In this document: positions 23,186-36,351 of the stretch, one piece after another | How the letters are laid out: each line of letters starts with the position of its first letter | How positions within the stretch are numbered: the first letter of the stretch is position 1 | From: Paraburkholderia sp. Tr-20389 | GTDB lineage: Bacteria; Pseudomonadota; Gammaproteobacteria; Burkholderiales; Burkholderiaceae | Length of the DNA stretch: 64,000 nucleotides | Assembly: GCF_017104565.1 (NCBI RefSeq) | Contig: NZ_JAAGPD010000001.1 | Coordinates: 62,001-126,000 of the forward strand | Direction of reading: 5' to 3' | Position numbers and translations under genes: made by a program | Notes under the pieces: model-generated | The model's input: the letters and a program-made list of their open reading frames with translations, nothing else | What the model was told of the DNA's origin: nothing | Databases searched by the model: none

Positions 23186-23941
23186 TCATCGTGCAGCGCG
23201 GCGGCGCAGCCATTCCGCGACGAGCACGCATGCGGTGAGCCACACGGTCGACGACATGGCTCCAGCGGCGACATCGCTCGCGAAATGCACGCCGATCATC
23301 AGCCGGCTCCATGCAATCATCCCGACCAGCGCGACCGCACCGAGCACGACAGGCGGCCTCCATTGCGCGGGCAGCGTCCGCACGAGCACGTACGCGATCG
23401 CGCCGTATGTCGCGAGCGAGCCGGCGGTATGGCCGCTCGGAAAACTCCAGCTGTGCACGGACGCGAGTGCGGTGTCGTACTCGGGCCGCGCGCGCCGGAT
23501 CATATGCTTCAACGTCATGTTGAGCAGGCCGTTTCCGCCCGATGCTGCGGCGAGTGTGCAGGCGAGCAGCACGTGACGCTTCGACAGCAACGCGAGCACG
23601 CCCGCCGTGCAGCAGACGGCCAGCAGCCAGGGATCGCCGAGATGCGTCGCCGTCGCGAAGAACCGCTTCGCGCCTTGCGGAACCGCTGCGCCGAGATCGA
23701 ACGCAAAGGCGAGGTCGAAGCGGGGCAATCCGGGGTTGCTCAATAGCGCGTACGTGATCGCCACGAAAACTGCGCCGGCCAGGACGATGACGGCGACGCC
23801 GACGCGAGCGCCTGTATCGAAGGTCAGCACGCGTGCGCGGCCGATGCAAAACGCACCATACGCGATGCATTCCGCGACGACCAACGTCGCCACCATCAGC
23901 GCCACTGCATGCCGCCCTGCGAGACTTGCGAGTTCGATCAT
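23186..23941 (-). CDS. PAP2-family membrane phosphatase
   Basis: 251 residues with six hydrophobic helices and the PAP2 signature: KHMIRRARPEY (K-x6-R-P), SFPSGHTAGS, then SRLMIGVHFASDV with the SR-x5-H-x3-D motif. All three catalytic blocks are intact, so a lipid phosphate (phosphatidate or undecaprenyl-PP) is the likely substrate. It is the last gene of an overlapping four-gene operon; its ATG overlaps the stop of the metallophosphoesterase by 4 nt. Confidence 0.92.
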   Translation of the reverse strand: MIELASLAGRHAVALMVATLVVAECIAYGAFCIGRARVLTFDTGARVGVAVIVLAGAVFVAITYALLSNPGLPRFDLAFAFDLGAAVPQGAKRFFATATHLGDPWLLAVCCTAGVLALLSKRHVLLACTLAAASGGNGLLNMTLKHMIRRARPEYDTALASVHSWSFPSGHTAGSLATYGAIAYVLVRTLPAQWRPPVVLGAVALVGMIAWSRLMIGVHFASDVAAGAMSSTVWLTACVLVAEWLRRRAAR

Positions 23942-24786
23942 GACGGCCCGACTGCGTGTGCAGAATTGGACGACAGCGTTTCATCCGGACGCGCCAGCGT
24001 GAGTTCGTGCTGTAGCACGGGCACGAATGCCTTGCCGTCTTCGTCGAAGTCGTAGCGGGCGATGACAGCCTTTCTCGCGCCCGCGTCGTAGCGAATCAGA
24101 TTGACGGAGTTCGAAATCTGCCCGCGTATGCGCGTCGATACGGCCGTGCCCGCCTGCACGGCCCACACAGGCCGCGCGATCTGCATGCGTTCCGCGAGCG
24201 GCAGCACATACGGCAGATGGATATGTCCGCCGACGATCAGATCGACGCCCGCCTGCGCCCATCGGCGGATCGCGGGTTCGCGGCCATGCAGCAGGTTGTG
24301 CGTGTCGTCCGCCGTCACCGACGCGACGGGCTGATGCGTGACCACGACACGCAATTGCAACGGCGTGGCATGCTCCAGCCGCCGCGCGACGCATTCGATC
24401 TGCTCCGCCGATACCTCGCCGTCCGTATGGCGCGACGGACGTGTCGTATTCAATCCGATCACGAGCAGTTCGCGCGATTCGAACTGCGGTTCGAGATTCG
24501 CGCCGAACACGCGCCGATGGTTCGCATACGGATGCAGCACGCGAGCGAACAGATTGAAGAGAGGGATGTCGTGATTGCCGGGTATCACGAGCGAAGGCGT
24601 CGCGCCGAGACGATCGACGAACGCGCGCGCCGCCGCGAACTGGGTGCGCCGCGCGCGCTGCGTGATATCGCCGGACAGCACGGCGAGATCCGGTTGCTCG
24701 TGCGCGGCGAGTCGCAGCAACGCTTCGACCACCTCGGGCCGTTCGGTGCCGAAGTGCGGATCGGAGATCTGGAGCAGCAGTGTCAT
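23938..24786 (-). CDS. Calcineurin-like metallophosphoesterase
   Basis: 282 residues with the five metal-binding blocks: SDPHFGTERP, LSGDITQRAR, PGNHDIPL, THQPVAS, GGHIHLPYV. This is the calcineurin/MPP superfamily, with cAMP, UDP-diacylglucosamine or cardiolipin-type substrates possible. It overlaps the lipid kinase upstream and the PAP2 gene downstream by 4 nt each. Its position in a lipid-handling operon favours a lipid or nucleotide-lipid diphosphate substrate, an inference only. Confidence 0.9.
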   Translation of the reverse strand: MTLLLQISDPHFGTERPEVVEALLRLAAHEQPDLAVLSGDITQRARRTQFAAARAFVDRLGATPSLVIPGNHDIPLFNLFARVLHPYANHRRVFGANLEPQFESRELLVIGLNTTRPSRHTDGEVSAEQIECVARRLEHATPLQLRVVVTHQPVASVTADDTHNLLHGREPAIRRWAQAGVDLIVGGHIHLPYVLPLAERMQIARPVWAVQAGTAVSTRIRGQISNSVNLIRYDAGARKAVIARYDFDEDGKAFVPVLQHELTLARPDETLSSNSAHAVGPS

Positions 24787-28446: not shown

Positions 28447-29460
28447 ATGCGAAAGATGAGAGCGGTACAGGTCGGCGCGGCGGGCGGGGCGCTGGAACTC
28501 GTGGAGCGCGACGTGCCGGCGCCGGGCGCGGGCCAGGTGTTGATCAAGGTGCAGGCGTGCGGCATCTGCCATAGCGACTCGATGACGAAAGACGGCCTGT
28601 GGCCGGGATTGCAGTATCCGCGCGTGCCGGGACACGAGGTCGCGGGCGTGATCGATAGCGTCGGCGCGGGCGTCGAGGGCTGGAAGCCGGGCGTGCGCGT
28701 GGGCGTGGGCTGGCATGGCGGACATTGCGGGCACTGCGCGGCGTGCCGGCGTGGCCACTTCGTCGTGTGCGAAAAAGCGCAGGTGCCGGGCATCAGCTAC
28801 GACGGCGGCTATGCCGACTATCTCGTCGCGCCCGTCGAAGCGCTCGCGCGCATGCCCGACGATCTCAAGGACGTCGATGCGGCGCCGCTGCTTTGCGCGG
28901 GCATCACCACGTTCAATGCGTTGCGCAACAGCGGCGCGCGGGCGGGCGATCTGGTCGCCGTGCTCGGCATCGGCGGGCTGGGGCATCTCGGCGTGCAGTT
29001 TGCGCGGCGGATGGGTTTCAACACCGTCGCGATCGCCCGCGGCGAGGACAAGGCGCCGCTCGCGAAGCAACTCGGCGCGCATCACTACATCGACAGCCGC
29101 GCGCAGGACGTGGCCGAAGCGCTGAAGGCGCTGGGCGGCGCGAAAGTCATCCTCGCGACGGTGACGAGCGGAGACGCGATGACGGCGACTCTCGGCGGTC
29201 TCGGGCTCGACGGCAAGCTGATCATTCTCGGCGCCGCGGACAAGCCGATCGAGGTGCCGCCCGTGCAGTTCATCATGGGCCGCAACGCGGTGCAGGGCTG
29301 GCCGTCCGGTTCGTCGGCGGATTCGGAGGACACGCTCGCGTTCAGCGCGCTCGCCGACGTCAAGCCGATGATCGAGACCTATCCGCTCGAACGTGCCGCC
29401 GAAGCGTACGACCGTATGATGAGCGGCGCCGCGCGTTTCCGCGTCGTGCTGACAATGTAA
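28447..29460 (+). CDS. Zinc-dependent alcohol dehydrogenase
   Basis: 337 residues. Catalytic zinc ligands sit in GICHSD and GHEVAGVIDS, and the four structural zinc cysteines in GHCGHCAACRRGHFVVCE are complete. The Rossmann fold is VLGIGGLGHLGVQFARRMG. The family oxidises alcohols with NAD(P)+ (AdhA/propanol-preferring type). The start at 28447 has GGAG 9 nt upstream; a longer ORF starts at 28396. It is a single gene ended by a strong hairpin. Confidence 0.93.
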   Translation: MRKMRAVQVGAAGGALELVERDVPAPGAGQVLIKVQACGICHSDSMTKDGLWPGLQYPRVPGHEVAGVIDSVGAGVEGWKPGVRVGVGWHGGHCGHCAACRRGHFVVCEKAQVPGISYDGGYADYLVAPVEALARMPDDLKDVDAAPLLCAGITTFNALRNSGARAGDLVAVLGIGGLGHLGVQFARRMGFNTVAIARGEDKAPLAKQLGAHHYIDSRAQDVAEALKALGGAKVILATVTSGDAMTATLGGLGLDGKLIILGAADKPIEVPPVQFIMGRNAVQGWPSGSSADSEDTLAFSALADVKPMIETYPLERAAEAYDRMMSGAARFRVVLTM

Positions 29461-29473
29461 CAAGCGTCGGCAA

Positions 29474-29501
29474 GCCGCCGTCGCGGGCATGCGACGGCGG
29501 C
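29474..29501 (+). terminator. 11-bp perfect GC hairpin after the alcohol dehydrogenase
   Basis: GCCGCCGTCGC, loop GGGCAT, GCGACGGCGGC, 13 nt after the stop codon, followed by the pyrimidine-rich ATTCCTTCTCC. Confidence 0.7.
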
Positions 29502-29597
29502 CGCAATTCCTTCTCCGCCTTTGATAACAGGGCTCAGCGGCCGTCTAGACAGGTCTGCTGCCGCCCATCGACATCTTCCCCAGGCGGTTTCCGGTCC

Positions 29598-29618
29598 GGC
29601 AGCGTGTAAACTGCTGCC
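29598..29618 (+). promoter_or_regulatory. Inverted repeat in the leader of the stator-like operon
   Basis: GGCAGC, 9 nt (GTGTAAACT), GCTGCC, then TTTT, ending 20 nt before the first start codon of the DUF3348 gene. The TAAACT inside the loop resembles a -10 box, so the repeat may flank a promoter or form a short attenuator. Confidence 0.4.
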
Positions 29619-29638
29619 TTTTCAAGATTTCTGGTGGT

Positions 29639-30385
29639 ATGGTTCAAGCCCCTCAGCGCACTGCGGTCAGCGGCCCGACGCTGGTTCGCCTGCTCGCGCG
29701 CCTGACGGCCGCCGACGTGTCCGCCTCCAGCCAGTCGCTGTCCGATCAGTTGAGCCAGTGGCTCGGCTGGACGGACGCCATTGCGCTGTCGACGGCGCTC
29801 AACGGCAAGCCGCCCGGTGTCGTTTCCGGCGCGCGGAGTGCAGGCACGGTCGAAGAGGAGTGCGCCGGCGTGCGCGCTGCGCTGGCCGATGCCATCGCTG
29901 GCGACAGCGTGCTGTCCACGCGCCGGCGGCGCGGCGCCCCGCACGCGCAGACCGCGCCGGCACAGCCCGAGGCCAGTTACGCGGATTTTCGCCAGTGCTA
30001 CCTTGCGCTCCAGCAGACGATGGAAACCCGCATCGGCGCGCTGCGCGGCCGCCTGCGCAGCCTGCTGGCCGCGAAGACGCCCGAGATGACGCGCCTCGCG
30101 GTCGTGGACGCGATCATGGAGCGCTCGCTGGGCGCGCGCGAGCGCAGCCTCTTCGGCGCGGTGCCGGGCCTGCTCGGCGGCCATTTCGAGCGCCTCCGCA
30201 AGGCCGAGCGCGACGCGCAGGCAGCTGGCGCTCCGGCCGAAGCACAAGCTCAGACAGAGCCCGCAACCCGGCCCGGTGCGTGGCTCGACGGGTTCCGCAA
30301 GGACATGCAAAGCGTGTTGCTGGCCGAACTCGACATTCGTTTTCAACCGGTCGAAGGGCTGCTCGCCGCCCTTCGCATCAGCTAA
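29639..30385 (+). CDS. DUF3348 family protein, first gene of the stator-like operon
   Basis: 248 residues, soluble and Ala/Arg-rich, without signal peptide or membrane helix. The opening (TLVRLLARLTAADV, LSQWLGWTDAIALSTALNG) matches DUF3348 as I remember it from Burkholderia annotations. A middle Arg-rich stretch carries MEERSLGARERSLFG-like helices. No catalytic motif is seen. It ends 10 nt before the DUF802 gene, so co-expression is very likely. Its role may be as a cytoplasmic adaptor for the membrane complex, which is only a guess. Confidence 0.8.
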   Translation: MVQAPQRTAVSGPTLVRLLARLTAADVSASSQSLSDQLSQWLGWTDAIALSTALNGKPPGVVSGARSAGTVEEECAGVRAALADAIAGDSVLSTRRRRGAPHAQTAPAQPEASYADFRQCYLALQQTMETRIGALRGRLRSLLAAKTPEMTRLAVVDAIMERSLGARERSLFGAVPGLLGGHFERLRKAERDAQAAGAPAEAQAQTEPATRPGAWLDGFRKDMQSVLLAELDIRFQPVEGLLAALRIS

Positions 30386-30395
30386 CTGGGACGAC

Positions 30396-32834
30396 ATGTC
30401 CAGATATCGCATTGATTTGGTAGTTGTTTTTCTCGTAGGTCTGATTGCTGCCGGTTGGGTCGGCGCAGGCTATCTCGTGTCGAACCCGCTGGCGCTCGCC
30501 GTCACGCTGCTGGTCGTCGCCTGCTATGTGGCGGGTGCGCTGGAGTTGCAGCGCTATCAGCAGGCCACGGCCACGCTGACGCGCGCGGTGACGGAACTGA
30601 CCGAGGCGCCGACGCGGCTCGGCGTGTGGCTCGAACGGCTGGATGCCGGTTTGCGCACGCCGGTGCGCCTGCGTATCGAAGGCGAGCGCGTCGCGCTGCC
30701 GGGACCGGCGCTCACGCCTTATCTGGTCGGTCTGCTGGTGCTGCTCGGCATGCTGGGCACGCTGCTTGGCATGGTGACGACGCTGCGCGGCACGGGCCTC
30801 GCGCTGGACAGCGCGACGGACCTGCAGGCGATCCGCGCGTCGCTCGCCGCGCCCGTCAAGGGGCTGGGGTTCGCGTTCGGCACCTCGATTGCGGGCGTGG
30901 CGACGTCGGCGATGCTCGGGCTGCTGTCCGCGCTGTGCCGGCGCGAGCGCGCCCAGGCCGCGCATCTGCTGGACACGAAGATCGCGACGACGCTGCGCGC
31001 GTTTTCGCAGAGCCAGAAGCGCGACGAGACGTTCAAGCTGCTGCAACGCCAGGCCGACATGATGCCCGCGCTGGTCGACCGCCTTCAGGCGATGATGACG
31101 GTGATCGAGCAGCAGAGCGTCGCGCTGAACGAACGGCTGATCGCGAACCAGCATGCGTTCCACGGCAGAACGGAAGCGGCGTACTCGCGGCTCGTCTCGA
31201 CGGTGTCGCAGTCGTTGAAGGACAGCGCCGCCGAAAGCGCGCGCGCCGCAAGTGAAGCGCTGCAACCGGCGCTGGAAGCGAGCATGTCCGGCCATGCGCG
31301 TGAAATGGCCTCGTTGCGCGAGACCGTCGAGCAGGCGGTGCAGCGTCAACTCGACGGACTCTCGACGGGCTTCGAAGCGAGCACGACGACCGTGGCCGAC
31401 CTGTGGACCAAGGCGCTTCAGGGACAGCGGAACGCGAGCGAGTCGATGGTCGCGGATCTGCGCGCGTCGCTGGAAGGCTTCAGCCAGACCTTCGAGCAGC
31501 GTTCGAGCACCTTGCTGGACGGCGTCTCGGCGCGCCTCGATGCGACGGCGGGCCAGGTGTCGAGCGCGGCGGAAAGCGCCCGCGCCGCCGGTGCGGCGTT
31601 GCAGCCGGCGATGGAAGCGACGATGGCGGGCCATGCGCGCGAAATGGCCGCGCTGCGCGAGATCGTCGAGCAGGCGGTGCAGCGTCAGCTGGACGGTCTG
31701 TCGACGGGTCTGGAGGCCACCACGGCGACCGTCGCGGAGATGTGGAACAAGGCGCTCCAGGGGCAGCAGAACGCGAGCGAGTCGATGGTCGCGGATCTGC
31801 GCGCGTCGCTGGAAGGCTTCAGCCAGACTTTCGAGCAGCGTTCGGGCACCTTGCTGGACGGCGTGTCGGCGCGTCTCGACGCGACGGCCGGCCAGGTATC
31901 GCAAGCATGGACGGACGCGCTGTCGCAGCAGGAGCGCGCGGGTGAAAAGCTCGCCGATCACAACCGCCAGGCACTCACGACGGCTGCGGCCGCGTTCGAG
32001 CAGCATTCGGCAGCGCTGTTGCAAGCCGTCGGCCAGTCGCATGCCGGCTTGCAGGCCGAACTGGCGTCGCGCGACGAAGCGCGTCTGGCCGCATGGCGCG
32101 CGTCGCTCGAAGCCGTCGCCGCGACCTTGAACCAGCAATGGGAAGAAGCGGGCGCGCGCAGCGCGAACCGACAGCAGGAAATCTGCGACACGCTTGCGCA
32201 GACGGCCAGCGATATTTCGACGCAAACCCAGGCGCACGCGAACGGCACGATCGCGGAGATTTCGCGGCTCGTGCAGGCTGCGTCGGAAGCGCCGCGCGTG
32301 GCGGCCGAAGTGGTCGCCGAACTGCGCCAGAAACTGTCCGACAGCATGGTTCGCGACACCGCGATGCTCGACGAGCGCAGCCGTTTGCTCGCCACGCTGG
32401 AGACGCTGCTCGACGCGGTGAACCATGCGTCGACGGAGCAGCGCACGGCTGTCGATGCGCTCGTATCGACATCGGCGGGCTTGCTGGAGCGTGTCGGCAC
32501 GCAGTTCACCGACAAGGTCGAAGCCGAAACCCGCAAGCTCGGCGACGTCGCCGCGCAGGTGACGGGCAGCGCCGTCGAAGTGGCGAGTCTCGGCGACGCG
32601 TTCGGCGTCGCCGTGAAGCTGTTCGGCGAATCGAACGACAAGCTGATGGCGCATCTGCAGCGCATCGAAGCCGCGCTCGACAAGTCGTTGATGCGTAGCG
32701 ACGAGCAACTGGCGTACTACGTCGCGCAGGCTCGCGAAGTCATCGACCTGAGCATGTTGTCGCAGAAGCAGATCGTCGAAGATCTGCAGCAACTGGCGGG
32801 CAGGCGTGCTTCCGCGGGAGCCGACGCGGCATGA
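30396..32834 (+). CDS. MotA/TolQ/ExbB-like membrane protein with long coiled tail (DUF802)
   Basis: 812 residues. Four membrane helices: about 7-28, 31-50, 108-129 and 155-180. Helices 3 and 4 carry GMLGTLLGMVTTLRGTG and VKGLGFAFGTSIAGVATSAMLGLL, the signature layout of proton-channel stator proteins (MotA, TolQ, ExbB, ZorA). About 620 residues of alternating heptad-like helix follow, rich in Ala/Glu/Gln, with a 113-residue tandem duplication. Pfam DUF802 describes repeats in such tails, to my memory. The start ATG at 30396 begins at the first helix; the ORF extends upstream into the previous gene. It overlaps the MotB-like gene by 4 nt. I infer a proton-driven motor; its target is unknown. 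Confidence 0.8.
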   Translation: MSRYRIDLVVVFLVGLIAAGWVGAGYLVSNPLALAVTLLVVACYVAGALELQRYQQATATLTRAVTELTEAPTRLGVWLERLDAGLRTPVRLRIEGERVALPGPALTPYLVGLLVLLGMLGTLLGMVTTLRGTGLALDSATDLQAIRASLAAPVKGLGFAFGTSIAGVATSAMLGLLSALCRRERAQAAHLLDTKIATTLRAFSQSQKRDETFKLLQRQADMMPALVDRLQAMMTVIEQQSVALNERLIANQHAFHGRTEAAYSRLVSTVSQSLKDSAAESARAASEALQPALEASMSGHAREMASLRETVEQAVQRQLDGLSTGFEASTTTVADLWTKALQGQRNASESMVADLRASLEGFSQTFEQRSSTLLDGVSARLDATAGQVSSAAESARAAGAALQPAMEATMAGHAREMAALREIVEQAVQRQLDGLSTGLEATTATVAEMWNKALQGQQNASESMVADLRASLEGFSQTFEQRSGTLLDGVSARLDATAGQVSQAWTDALSQQERAGEKLADHNRQALTTAAAAFEQHSAALLQAVGQSHAGLQAELASRDEARLAAWRASLEAVAATLNQQWEEAGARSANRQQEICDTLAQTASDISTQTQAHANGTIAEISRLVQAASEAPRVAAEVVAELRQKLSDSMVRDTAMLDERSRLLATLETLLDAVNHASTEQRTAVDALVSTSAGLLERVGTQFTDKVEAETRKLGDVAAQVTGSAVEVASLGDAFGVAVKLFGESNDKLMAHLQRIEAALDKSLMRSDEQLAYYVAQAREVIDLSMLSQKQIVEDLQQLAGRRASAGADAA
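31233..31901 (+). repeat. 339-bp tandem duplication inside the stator-like tail
   Basis: Two copies in frame start at 31233 and 31572. Aligned by eye they differ at about 15 of 110 residues. Shared blocks include GHAREMA, VEQAVQRQLDGLSTG and SESMVADLRASLEGFSQTFEQR. The copies are longest-identical at 31432-31500 against 31771-31839. Confidence 0.9.
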
Positions 32835-33478
32835 ACGAGGACATCGACGGCGGCGTCGAGCCGACGACACCCATCTGGGCCGCGTTCAGCGATCTGATGT
32901 CGGTGCTGCTGGGCGCGTTCGTGCTGCTGCTCGTCGCCGTGATCGGCGTGCAGCTGGAACTCTCCGCGCGCCTCGACGACGCGGTGAAACAGCGGCAGAT
33001 GGAAGCGCAGCGCCGCAAGACGCTGGAGCAGGCGCTGGCGGGCCCGCTCGCGGCGGGGCGCGTGACGCTCGTCAACGGACGCATCGGCATCAGCGGCAAC
33101 GTGCTGTTCGCGCTGAACTCCGATCAGTTGCAGCCGCAGGGGCGCGATCTGTTGAAGAGTCTCGCCGCGCCGTTGTCCGCGTATCTGCGCTCGCATGACG
33201 AAATCCTGATGGTGAGCGGTTTCGCCGACGACCAGCAGGTGCGTTCCGGCAACCGGCGTTTCGCCGACAACTGGGAACTGTCGGCGCAGCGCGCGCTGAC
33301 GGTGACGCGCGCGTTCATCGATTCGGGCATTCCCGCGTCGTCGGTGTTCGCGGCGGCGTTCGGTTCGGAACAGCCTGTCAGCTCGAACGCGGACAGCGAA
33401 GGGCGCGCGAAGAACCGTCGCGTGGAAATCGCGGCGGTGCCGAGGCCGTCGTCGGCGGGCAGCGCGAATCGTGAGTAA
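32831..33478 (+). CDS. MotB-like OmpA-domain protein, stator partner
   Basis: 215 residues. One N-terminal membrane helix (about 16-38) starts WAAFSDLMSVLLGAF; its Asp21 aligns with the essential proton-carrying Asp32 of E. coli MotB (context YADFM there, FSDLM here). A short coiled linker leads to an OmpA-like peptidoglycan-binding domain (about 80-205) with DNWELSAQRALTV and AKNRRVEIAA. This is the classic MotB/ZorB architecture. It overlaps the DUF802 gene by 4 nt and precedes DUF2894 by 6 nt. Confidence 0.9.
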   Translation: MNEDIDGGVEPTTPIWAAFSDLMSVLLGAFVLLLVAVIGVQLELSARLDDAVKQRQMEAQRRKTLEQALAGPLAAGRVTLVNGRIGISGNVLFALNSDQLQPQGRDLLKSLAAPLSAYLRSHDEILMVSGFADDQQVRSGNRRFADNWELSAQRALTVTRAFIDSGIPASSVFAAAFGSEQPVSSNADSEGRAKNRRVEIAAVPRPSSAGSANRE

Positions 33479-33484
33479 AGAAAC

Positions 33485-34123
33485 GTGAGTCACGACGCGA
33501 GCCAATCGCAAGCGACGCTCGACGCATGGCGCGAGCAGGGCGCCGACGCGCACGATCCGCTGCGTTTTCATTTCATCGATGCGTTGGCTCGGCGCGCCGC
33601 ACAGCATGACGGCGAGGCACGCCGCGTGCTCGACGCGCGCCTGTCAGCTTTGCTCGATGCCTATGCCGCCGATCTCGCAGGCCATGCGTCGAAAGCCGAA
33701 GCGGTGGAAAGCAGCGCCGTGTCGGGCAAGCCGTCGCGTGGACCGCTCGCCGGACTGGTCGATTACATCGCGAGTCAGGCGGCCGAAAACGGCGGGAGCG
33801 TGCCGTCCAGTCCCGCCGTTCACGCCGAACTGAAGGCGCTCGATTACTTCCGCGAAACCTGGTCGAAGGTCAGTGCCGAGAAGCAGTTGCGTCAATCGCT
33901 CGAACAGGTGCCGGGCAATGCCGGTCCGCTCAATTCGAGCAGCCTCGTGCATCGTTCGCTGTCGCTGATGCGCGAACTGTCGCCGGGTTATCTACAGCAG
34001 TTTCTGTCGTACGTCGACGCGTTGTCGTGGATGGAGCAGCTCACGGGCGGCGGTGTGCCGCCCGTCAAAGAGGTGCCCCGCGCCGCGAGCGCGAAGAAGG
34101 GTGCGCGCGGCAAGGCGCGCTAG
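33485..34123 (+). CDS. DUF2894 family protein, last gene of the stator-like operon
   Basis: 212 residues starting at a GTG. It has no membrane helix or signal peptide. Blocks such as PLAGLVDYIASQA, ALDYFRETWSKVSAEKQLRQSLEQVPGNAGPLNS and HRSLSLMRELSPGYLQQFLSYVDALSWMEQL match DUF2894. A basic C-terminus (KKGARGKAR) may bind nucleic acid or an acidic partner. It is always near DUF802 genes in the genomes I know, so it probably forms part of the same complex. The stop overlaps that of the convergent EF-G paralog. Confidence 0.8.
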   Translation: MSHDASQSQATLDAWREQGADAHDPLRFHFIDALARRAAQHDGEARRVLDARLSALLDAYAADLAGHASKAEAVESSAVSGKPSRGPLAGLVDYIASQAAENGGSVPSSPAVHAELKALDYFRETWSKVSAEKQLRQSLEQVPGNAGPLNSSSLVHRSLSLMRELSPGYLQQFLSYVDALSWMEQLTGGGVPPVKEVPRAASAKKGARGKAR

Positions 34124-36165
34124 TCCGCGTCGGCCTGCTTCTTGTACTGCGAAGCGAGCTTGTCCTGCTGGTTCGGCGGAACGGGGTCGTAATGGCTCAG
34201 TTCGATGTTGTAGTTGCCGTGTCCGCCCGCAATCGCGTTGAGCCGCGACTGATAGTCGGTGAGTTCCGACAGTGGCACTTTCCCCGCCACCACGACGGCA
34301 TGACCCGCGAGATTGCGCGTGCCCTGCACCTGCGCGCGCCGTGACGACAGATCGCCGATGATGTCGCCCATGGTCGTCTCGGGCGTCATCACCTCGATAT
34401 TGACGATGGGTTCGAGCAGGACGGGCTGAGCCTTGAGCACGGCGTCGATGAAGGCCTTGCGGCCCGCCGTGATGAACGCGACTTCCTTCGAGTCGACAGG
34501 ATGGCTCTTGCCGTCGAACACGGTGATGCGCACGTCCTGCATCGGAAAGCCCGCAAGCGGCCCGTTTTCGATCACCTGCAATATTCCTTTCTCGACGGCG
34601 GGCATGAACTGGCCCGGAATCGCGCCGCCTTTGACGGCGTCGACGAACTCGTAGCCCGCGCCGCGCGGCAGCGGTTCGACGCGCAGCATCACTTCGCCGA
34701 ACTGTCCCGCGCCGCCCGTCTGTTTCTTGTGACGGTGATGCCCTTCCGCCTTGCCGCCGATGGTCTCGCGATACGCGATCTTCGGCGGCCGCGTGACGAC
34801 GGCCAGCTTGTACTGATCGCTGAGCCGCTCCAGCATGTGCCGCAGATGCAGTTCGCCGAGACCGCGCACGACGGTCTCGTTGGTGCCGACGGGATGTTCG
34901 ATCCGCAGGCAAGGGTCTTCGGCAGCGAGCTTCTGCAGGATTTCCCACAGACGCTGCTCGTTGCCGCGCCGCTCCGGTTCGATTGCGAGGCCGTAGATCG
35001 GCGTCGGAAAGGCGAGCGGTGCGAGATGGATGTTGCCGTCTTCGGGCGCGTCGTGCAGCACGGCATCGAAGGCTATTTCGTCCACCTTCGCCGTCGCGCA
35101 GATGTCGCCGGGGCCGGCCTGCAGCACCTCTTCGTGATCCTTGCCCTGCAAGAGCATCAGATGGGCGACGCGAAAGGGCTGGCGCGCATCGCCGATATAT
35201 AGCTGACTGTCGCGCCGCACCGTGCCTTGATGAATGCGGAACACAGCCATCTTGCCGATGTAAGGGTCGATCACGATCTTGAACACATGCGCGAGCACAT
35301 GCTTGCCGGGATCGGGTTCGGCCTGCACCGTGTCGCGCCGTCCATCGACATCGCGATAGAAGAGAGGCGGATTGCCTTCGAGCGGGTTGGGCAGCAGCCG
35401 CACGAATACATCGAGCAGTTCCTGGATGCCCGCGCCCGTTGCCGCCGATGTGAAGCACACGGGCACCAGATGACCTTCGCGCAATGCGCGCTCGAAGGGT
35501 TCGTGCAACTGTTCCGGCTCGATCGCTTCGCCCTGTTCGAGATACAGCTCCATCAGCTTCGCATCGAGTTCGATCACCTGATCGACGAGCGCGTCGTGCG
35601 CGGACCCGACGCTCAATAGATCGGCTTCGCCCGACGGATTGAAGAAGCAGTCGACCACGGCGTGCGCGTCTTGAGCGGGCAGATTGATGGGCAGACAGTT
35701 CTTGCCGAAGGTCTCTTGTATCTCTTCGAGCAGTCGCGGCAAATCGACCTTCTCGCCGTCGATGCCGTTCACGATGATGATGCGGCACAGCTTGCGTGCT
35801 TCGGCCCACGCCATCATGCGGCGCGTGGTCATTTCGATGCCGGTGCGCGCGTTGATCACGATCGCCGCTGTTTCGACAGCGGGCAATGCGCTGATGGAGA
35901 GACCGGAGAAGTCGGGGTAGCCGGGCGTGTCGGCGAGATAGATGCGGGTGTTCTGGTAGTCCAGGTGGGCGATCGCGGAAGAGAGCGAGTGATGGTATTT
36001 GCGCTCCAGCGGATCGAAGTCGCAGACCGTCGAGCCCCGGTCGACGCTGCCTGCCGCGTGGATCGCGCCGCCTTCTTTCAGCAGCGCCTCGATGAGCGAG
36101 GTCTTGCCGCAACCGGCATGGCCGACCAGCGCGATGGTACGGATGGCTTCGGGTGGATAATCCAT
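34120..36165 (-). CDS. Elongation factor G-like GTPase (EF-G paralog)
   Basis: 681 residues with all EF-G domains: GTPase (residues 8-270), domain II, III, IV (HKKQTGGAGQFGEV, TIG region) and V (VMTPETTMGDIIGDLSSRRAQ). The P-loop reads GHAGCGKTS rather than the usual GHIDAGKTT, the switch I motif RGITI is replaced by KYHHS, and the G3 box is DTPGYPDF instead of DTPGHVDF. These match the EF-G-like/FusA2 branch, not the housekeeping factor. I chose ATG 36165, which has GAGGA 5 nt upstream; the ATG at 36177 does not. It is a single gene, convergent with the stator operon. Function is uncertain: recycling or stress translation is possible. Confidence 0.88.
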   Translation of the reverse strand: MDYPPEAIRTIALVGHAGCGKTSLIEALLKEGGAIHAAGSVDRGSTVCDFDPLERKYHHSLSSAIAHLDYQNTRIYLADTPGYPDFSGLSISALPAVETAAIVINARTGIEMTTRRMMAWAEARKLCRIIIVNGIDGEKVDLPRLLEEIQETFGKNCLPINLPAQDAHAVVDCFFNPSGEADLLSVGSAHDALVDQVIELDAKLMELYLEQGEAIEPEQLHEPFERALREGHLVPVCFTSAATGAGIQELLDVFVRLLPNPLEGNPPLFYRDVDGRRDTVQAEPDPGKHVLAHVFKIVIDPYIGKMAVFRIHQGTVRRDSQLYIGDARQPFRVAHLMLLQGKDHEEVLQAGPGDICATAKVDEIAFDAVLHDAPEDGNIHLAPLAFPTPIYGLAIEPERRGNEQRLWEILQKLAAEDPCLRIEHPVGTNETVVRGLGELHLRHMLERLSDQYKLAVVTRPPKIAYRETIGGKAEGHHRHKKQTGGAGQFGEVMLRVEPLPRGAGYEFVDAVKGGAIPGQFMPAVEKGILQVIENGPLAGFPMQDVRITVFDGKSHPVDSKEVAFITAGRKAFIDAVLKAQPVLLEPIVNIEVMTPETTMGDIIGDLSSRRAQVQGTRNLAGHAVVVAGKVPLSELTDYQSRLNAIAGGHGNYNIELSHYDPVPPNQQDKLASQYKKQADAD

Positions 36166-36351
36166 GACCGTCCTCATTCTGCGGCAGTGATTCGGGCATT
36201 ATTGGTGAAAATGGCGCGTCCTGCCAGACGGCGCGCACCAATTTGCGAACTCGGGTATGCTGCGGCGCGGTATAAACGGATCGCGCGTGTTTCTGATAAC
36301 GTGCCCCGATCCACCCAATCTTCATTGATCGCTCATCGGATTGATACCGTA

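Follow-up and report, generated by a model that had tools for sequence, protein, structure and literature searches.

We analysed a stretch of 64,000 nucleotides of Paraburkholderia sp. Tr-20389 (contig NZ_JAAGPD010000001.1, positions 62,001 to 126,000), hereafter the window, in which four open reading frames, all on the + strand, form an operon at 29639..34123 with intergenic gaps of 10, -4 and 6 nucleotides. An earlier note, made from the sequence alone, had drawn the same layout and read it as a stator-like ion motor with two unknown partners. Judged by its sequence, the operon is a complete copy of the already described Zorya type III. Its genes and features are as follows.

29639..30385, + strand: DUF3348 gene, 248 amino acids (PADLOC PDLC00656, E 6.4e-106; PF11828, E 6.5e-101)
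30396..32834, + strand: zorA3, 812 amino acids (PADLOC ZorA3 models, E 0; DUF802, PF05650, E 1.7e-50, in the tail)
31224..31862, + strand: tandem duplication in the ZorA tail, spacing 339 nucleotides (113 amino acids)
32831..33478, + strand: zorB3, 215 amino acids (PADLOC PDLC00651, E 5.5e-117), with one membrane helix and an OmpA-type domain, overlapping zorA by 4 nucleotides
32891..32893, + strand: codon of ZorB Asp21, the predicted ion-binding residue, invariant in 81 of 81 sequences
33104..33418, + strand: OmpA-like, putative peptidoglycan-binding domain of ZorB3, residues 92-196 (PF00691, E 3.2e-17)
33485..34123, + strand: DUF2894 gene, 212 amino acids, GTG start (PADLOC PDLC00652, E 4e-88; PF11445, E 5.1e-68), predicted to be all-helical

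Within 29300-34300, no match to a sigma-70-like promoter was found, and there was one terminator-like site, below the shuffled mean of 3.5.

Identity of the operon and of its motor

The PADLOC profiles, in gene order ZorG3, ZorA3, ZorB3 and ZorF3, score far above the type I and II models. The earlier note had suggested a profile search against ZorA and ZorB, and it is the type III models that match (E 0 for ZorA3, 5.5e-117 for ZorB3). A new, unrelated machine is ruled out, since PADLOC names all four genes. Payne et al. 2021 (PMC8565338) reported Zorya motor gene pairs flanked by DUF3348 and DUF2894 (n = 6,401), named them Zorya type III, and cloned the operon of Stenotrophomonas nitritireducens, with which at least one phage plaqued significantly less in E. 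coli. The window carries the same set: adjacent MotA/MotB-like zorA and zorB, the flanking DUF3348 and DUF2894 genes, and, by sequence, the ion-site Asp and the PF00691 domain of ZorB. The two partners, which the earlier note had called unknown, are thus those by which Payne et al. define the type, and the operon is no novel machine with a missing effector. PADLOC gave no match to ZorC or ZorD among the two genes adjacent to zorAB (the type III partners) or ten further neighbours, and no ZorE nickase among the operon genes or the ten flanking proteins. The earlier note had rightly seen none of these genes nearby, but the idea of a missing effector falls away, because their absence is expected of type III. 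Its guess at an anti-phage role has a published counterpart in the relative that protects E. coli (PMC8565338); the note had sensed the system correctly without recognising it as published, and its interpretation is in this sense partly supported.

The letters of the two partners are swapped between sources: in Payne et al. 2021, DUF3348 is ZorF and DUF2894 is ZorG, and PADLOC-DB 2.0 (PDLC00652-00658) has the reverse. In the parts of the article cited here, Mariano et al. 2025 (PMC11890865) give structures for types I and II and treat type III by gene content and distribution only, with Paraburkholderia among the hosts; type III Zorya also appears in a defence list for Variovorax (PMC11953036). 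The gain from this assignment is that an "unknown machine" becomes a named system, and the question left is how a Zorya motor without a known nuclease stops phages.

The motor itself resembles that of type I. ZorA has four hydrophobic helices in its head (judged by eye), followed by a helical tail of about 630 amino acids that carries DUF802 repeats, and contains the motifs GTLLGMVTTLRGTG and GFAFGTSIAGVATSA, which are largely invariant among relatives and which the earlier note had compared with TolQ/MotA. A profile of the ZorA head (23 sequences) reached a sole PDB chain up to E 1, namely 8VVN_C, the type I ZorA (E 2.2e-4). For the ZorB N-terminus (first 70 residues, 15 sequences), 8VVN_B was the best PDB chain (E 1.2e-5), and 8QYD_F, which we take to be the E. 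coli ZorB, came third (E 0.009) after a PomB construct. Asp21, which lies in the motif FSDLM, stands opposite residue 26 of 8QYD_F and aligns with residue 24 of 8VVN_B (type I ZorB), the ion-site Asp24 according to Mariano et al. (PMC11890865). We therefore predict from these alignments that Asp21 is the ion-binding residue of ZorB; its OmpA-type domain is predicted to bind peptidoglycan. The note was right to propose an ion motor of the MotA/MotB kind, related closely to ZorA and ZorB and having a partner that binds peptidoglycan.

These comparisons also bear on whether the pair is an ordinary flagellar, Tol or Exb paralogue unrelated to defence. With the whole ZorB as profile, MotB and OmpA-domain chains outscore the ZorB chains via the periplasmic domain, and many of them match, as such a paralogue would. 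However, the type III profiles of PADLOC score far higher than the others, the ZorA head reaches type I ZorA alone in the PDB, and the pair co-occurs tightly with DUF3348 and DUF2894; we regard a paralogue of this kind as very improbable.

The co-occurrence was surveyed with tblastn in the best-matching 80 of 351 named loci. DUF3348 was present in 79 of the 80 and the other three genes in all 80; the lone locus without DUF3348 (L040) begins mid-operon at a contig end, and a few more loci are truncated at their ends. All four genes are under purifying selection, the ratio of nonsynonymous to synonymous substitution rates (dN/dS) being below 1 for every gene in 8 of 8 close pairs (ZorB 0.02-0.23, ZorA head 0.06-0.18, ZorA tail 0.06-0.15, DUF3348 0.05-0.31, DUF2894 0.15-0.42, the partners usually highest). 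This means that all four genes are maintained and, together with their co-occurrence in the 80 loci, that the gene grouping is not due to chance.

Distribution and inheritance

The Zorya III motor is near-universal in the genus: ZorB3 is present in one copy each in 91 of 98 genomes. It is missing from seven, one of which (G320) is 84% complete; DUF3348 is likewise missing from all seven, in which ZorA and DUF2894 were not searched, and is present in 6 of 6 tested genomes with ZorB3. In wider samples it is far less common: the order sample has ZorB3 in 11 of 250 genomes, representing 10 of 121 genera, and the class sample in 10 of 369. DUF2894 exceeds the cut-off in exactly these 11 genomes of the order; a further match, in G164, falls below it. 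Separately, in Corynebacterium glutamicum, a control, DUF2894 gave a match above the Pfam cut-off and the ZorB3 profile none; this match may be a false positive. The type I profile PDLC00610, used to gauge patchiness, matched none of the 98 genus genomes; as it likewise matched no control genome, this result carries no weight.

Of 18 operons outside the genus (order and class samples), 15 are complete and keep the gene order, that of G237 is truncated where its contig stops, and the other two consist of the ZorA3-ZorB3 pair only (L206:1537-4059 in genome G374 and L207:3563-6117 in G519, both of one family). No DUF3348 or DUF2894 was detected elsewhere in these two genomes (many contigs, 93% and 90% complete), and two control genomes matched; a diverged partner may lie below detection. 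Genes for a MutS-like protein and a Y-family polymerase are among those flanking the pair in G374, and one for a peptidyl-arginine deiminase is among those in G519.

Within the genus, the protein distances of the four genes track the rpoB distance in 41 genomes (Mantel r 0.66-0.78, values that none of 999 permutations reached). The joint tree has 29 well supported splits, of which 17 are shared with the rpoB tree (shuffled mean 0.17) and nine conflict with it: two are shallow (G301/G328 and G314/G333), three involve G339, and four are deep, in that a clade of G279, G297, G311, G318, G319, G321 and G342, plus G263, groups with another part of the genus. Most of the inheritance has thus been vertical; the exceptions may reflect transfers, or the limits of using a single gene as reference.

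The surroundings of the operon vary: the 41 genomes fall into 12 context clusters, the largest with 18 members, a figure for which there was no control operon for comparison. In the window, a gene for an elongation factor G (EF-G)-like GTPase (34120-36177, - strand) is convergent with the operon and overlaps its end by 4 nucleotides; a strong match occurs in 56 of 98 genus genomes, and among the 80 named loci this neighbour was found in 7 (L009-L015). No empty site was found, the window's other neighbours standing beside the EF-G-like gene in 0 of 12 regions. Against PADLOC, the ten flanking proteins gave one marginal match and one moderate one, a calcineurin-like phosphoesterase at 23938-24786 (- strand; candidate PDC-S10, E 2.7e-10). 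The window ZorB is 99.1% identical to a ZorB on a 1.9-Mb replicon of Paraburkholderia phymatum STM815. ZorB3 was matched (E up to 1e-30) in 27 plasmid records, 20 called non-mobilizable and 7 mobilizable; among the matches listed, 20 of the 27, all are at least 589 kb. In phage records there were 12 partial matches below 60% identity and none covering more than 80% of the protein, and no copy was confirmed in viral contigs by pattern-based scans for the two partners. A recently acquired defence-island set in this genus is disfavoured by the presence in 91 of 98 genomes, the vertical signal, the flanks, and the plasmid and phage records.

It is possible, though we think it unlikely, that the operon is instead a core envelope motor that monitors or maintains envelope tension and acts on phages only incidentally, when overexpressed in E. 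coli. The single copy in most of the genus, the agreement with rpoB (Mantel r 0.77, 17 of 29 supported splits), the lack of a full-length copy in phage records and of any in viral contigs by the two partner scans, and the existence of ZorA3-ZorB3 pairs without partners all speak for such a motor. On the other hand, ZorB3 is missing, together with DUF3348, from seven genus genomes and confined to few genera of the order; moreover, a relative is directly anti-phage in E. coli (PMC8565338), and core defence systems have already been described, including a type III Zorya of Ralstonia solanacearum (PMC13064858). The partnerless pairs and the near-universality in one genus bear on a possible role of the Zorya motor beyond defence.

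Length and repeats of the ZorA tail

The length of the ZorA tail turns over rapidly by repeat gain and loss. Across 41 genomes (that of the window plus 40 from the 91 genus carriers, the set from which the length figures are taken), ZorA ranges from 698 to 1100 amino acids, whereas ZorB ranges from 214 to 221. Many ZorA lengths are tandem-repeat classes, for instance 698, 785, 872 and 959, in steps of 87 amino acids. The repeat unit is 113 amino acids in the window's clade, where the two 300-nucleotide copies of the window (31224-31523 and 31563-31862) are 87% identical, and 29/58, 33, 51 or 76 amino acids in other clades. Mapped on the rpoB tree, the tail class needs 26 changes, against a mean of 29.3 and a minimum of 25 after shuffling; on the Zor tree it needs 24, against a mean of 29.3 and a minimum of 24. 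These values are so near the shuffled ones that little phylogenetic signal is left in the tail class, and it differs in 12 of 18 close pairs (rpoB distance below 0.03).

The repeats may also keep the helical register. In the six unduplicated proteins, the strongest hydrophobic period of the tail is 3.66-3.67 residues per turn, and the centroid is 3.644 or 3.65 depending on the residue set. Eight unit lengths (29, 33, 51, 69, 76, 113, 131 and 138; copies at least 70% identical, with 138 from a type I ZorA, 69 and 131 from outside the genus, and 87 counted as 3 x 29) all lie at most 0.12 turn off whole turns at a period of 3.64. Units 22, 73 and 95 were left out, the first being measured over just 22 residues, and weak self-matches in any coiled coil favouring in-phase offsets; a set that includes all three fits whole turns similarly. 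With the period free between 3.5 and 3.75, 1 of 20,000 random unit sets was as good, and 35 of 20,000 when units 29 and 138 were removed. With the period fixed, the chance counts per 400,000 were 3 at 3.64, 134 at 3.65 and 27,468 at 3.665, the spectral peak. As the fit depends on the period chosen (3.64 versus 3.665), it is suggested, not proven, that the repeats keep helical register, the unit lengths being whole turns if the period is near 3.64.

The tail of a type I ZorA (L184, genome G402) contains a 138-amino-acid tandem repeat, with 72% identity over 50 amino acids. Tail repeats as a property of type III only are ruled out by this case, one of three readable type I ZorA open reading frames in five loci, and tail growth by repeats is thus not special to type III. 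Among the literature matches listed, none was found on ZorA tail length or repeats.

The core envelope motor could be extended to the tail, which would then be a shaft of free length and fixed helical phase, with defence as one output of an older ZorA3-ZorB3 machine that survives partnerless in two genomes of one family; we offer this as a speculative idea with a small chance of being correct. If the tail does transmit force, whole-turn insertions (e.g. 29 or 51 residues) would be tolerated and insertions half a turn off would not.

Probable action in phage defence and comparison with known systems

We consider it probable on balance that the operon is a complete Zorya III anti-phage system working as an ion-driven motor. 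By homology with types I and II, from which the 5:2 assembly, the ion-driven movement and the sensing are drawn, five ZorA and two ZorB would probably assemble into an ion channel of the inner membrane, with ZorB as its anchor to peptidoglycan. Injection of phage DNA would disturb the envelope, thus engaging the ZorB anchor, and ion flow past Asp21 would be converted into movement of ZorA. The long bundled ZorA tail may then relay this movement into the cytoplasm, where the soluble DUF3348 and DUF2894 could act in place of ZorC, ZorD and ZorE. The anti-phage activity of the window copy is suggested by its relation to the tested S. nitritireducens operon (PMC8565338). Types I and II are reported to depend on ion flow, on binding to peptidoglycan and on the ZorA tail (PMC11890865), and Zorya has been reported at phage injection sites (PMC13190303). 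When Burkholderia cenocepacia K56-2 is infected, expression shifts in the first gene, or the first two, of Zorya I and III (PMC12584637).

Regarding the partners, in larger alignments DUF3348 has 27 invariant positions, all within residues 118-244, and DUF2894 has 16, within residues 123-180. AlphaFold2 models DUF2894 as seven helices (mean predicted local distance difference test score 70, predicted template modelling score 0.41), with residues of about 1-70 confident and the conserved half moderate; such an all-helical adaptor would fit a role in binding the tail or the motor. Searches of the PDB gave no convincing solved relative of either protein, the best of the weak matches having E 0.054 and 0.17, and there was no PHROG match up to E 0.01. 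A comparison of DUF3348 with DUF2894 gave no support for their being mutual relatives.

Several observations weigh against defence as the function. The operon is near-universal and mainly vertical in the genus, unlike typical accessory defence; there is no clear defence island among the ten flanking proteins; and neither partner showed a nuclease domain or an effector domain of another kind. In K56-2, CRISPR interference with predicted defence genes, Zorya III included according to the text, gave no change in fitness during infection with Bcep176 (PMC12584637), a result that would also suit a core envelope motor; it concerns one phage, and the authors give several possible reasons for it.

The lack of a recognisable enzymatic domain in the partners would also fit an abortive ion leak, in which the phage opens ZorAB as an unregulated channel, depolarising and killing the cell, with DUF3348 and DUF2894 as gatekeepers. 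Indeed, Payne et al. 2021 propose the two proteins as regulators of ZorAB and recall an earlier proton-channel proposal (PMC8565338). Yet types I and II need a structured tail, and type II has a nickase, ZorE, as its effector (PMC11890865); a tail of about 500-900 amino acids is not obviously needed for a mere leak. We judge a leak to be improbable and keep the ion-driven defence motor as our preferred account.

In gene content, the operon does not differ from the published Zorya type III (PMC8565338; PADLOC ZorA3/ZorB3/ZorF3/ZorG3), as all four genes and their families are the same. We add the genus-wide distribution, the mainly vertical inheritance, the survey of phage records, the tail repeats and the partnerless ZorA3-ZorB3 pairs; a mention of tail-length variability was not found in the parts of that paper cited here. 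Zorya type I (8VVN) shares the ZorA head, the ZorB N-terminus, the correspondence of Asp21 with residue 24 and a long ZorA tail, but has ZorC and ZorD where the window operon has DUF3348 and DUF2894. Type II shares the motor and the peptidoglycan anchor, with weak PADLOC matches; it has the ZorE nickase, which was not found among the operon genes and flanking proteins here, and the window ZorA is longer (the matched ZorA2 models have 505 and 545 positions). The MotAB and PomAB stators share the P.W...F.DLM motif around the ion-site Asp and the OmpA-type domain, whereas the window system has a long cytoplasmic tail and two soluble partners. The best profile match is not MotA or MotB for the operon genes in PADLOC, for the ZorA head or for the ZorB N-terminus; MotB is best for the OmpA domain alone. 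Finally, among highly conserved systems against mobile genetic elements, a type III Zorya has been reported that 90% or more of a species' genomes retain (PMC13064858). That conservation is at the species level; the present count, 91 of 98, covers a single genus, each genome standing for a different species.

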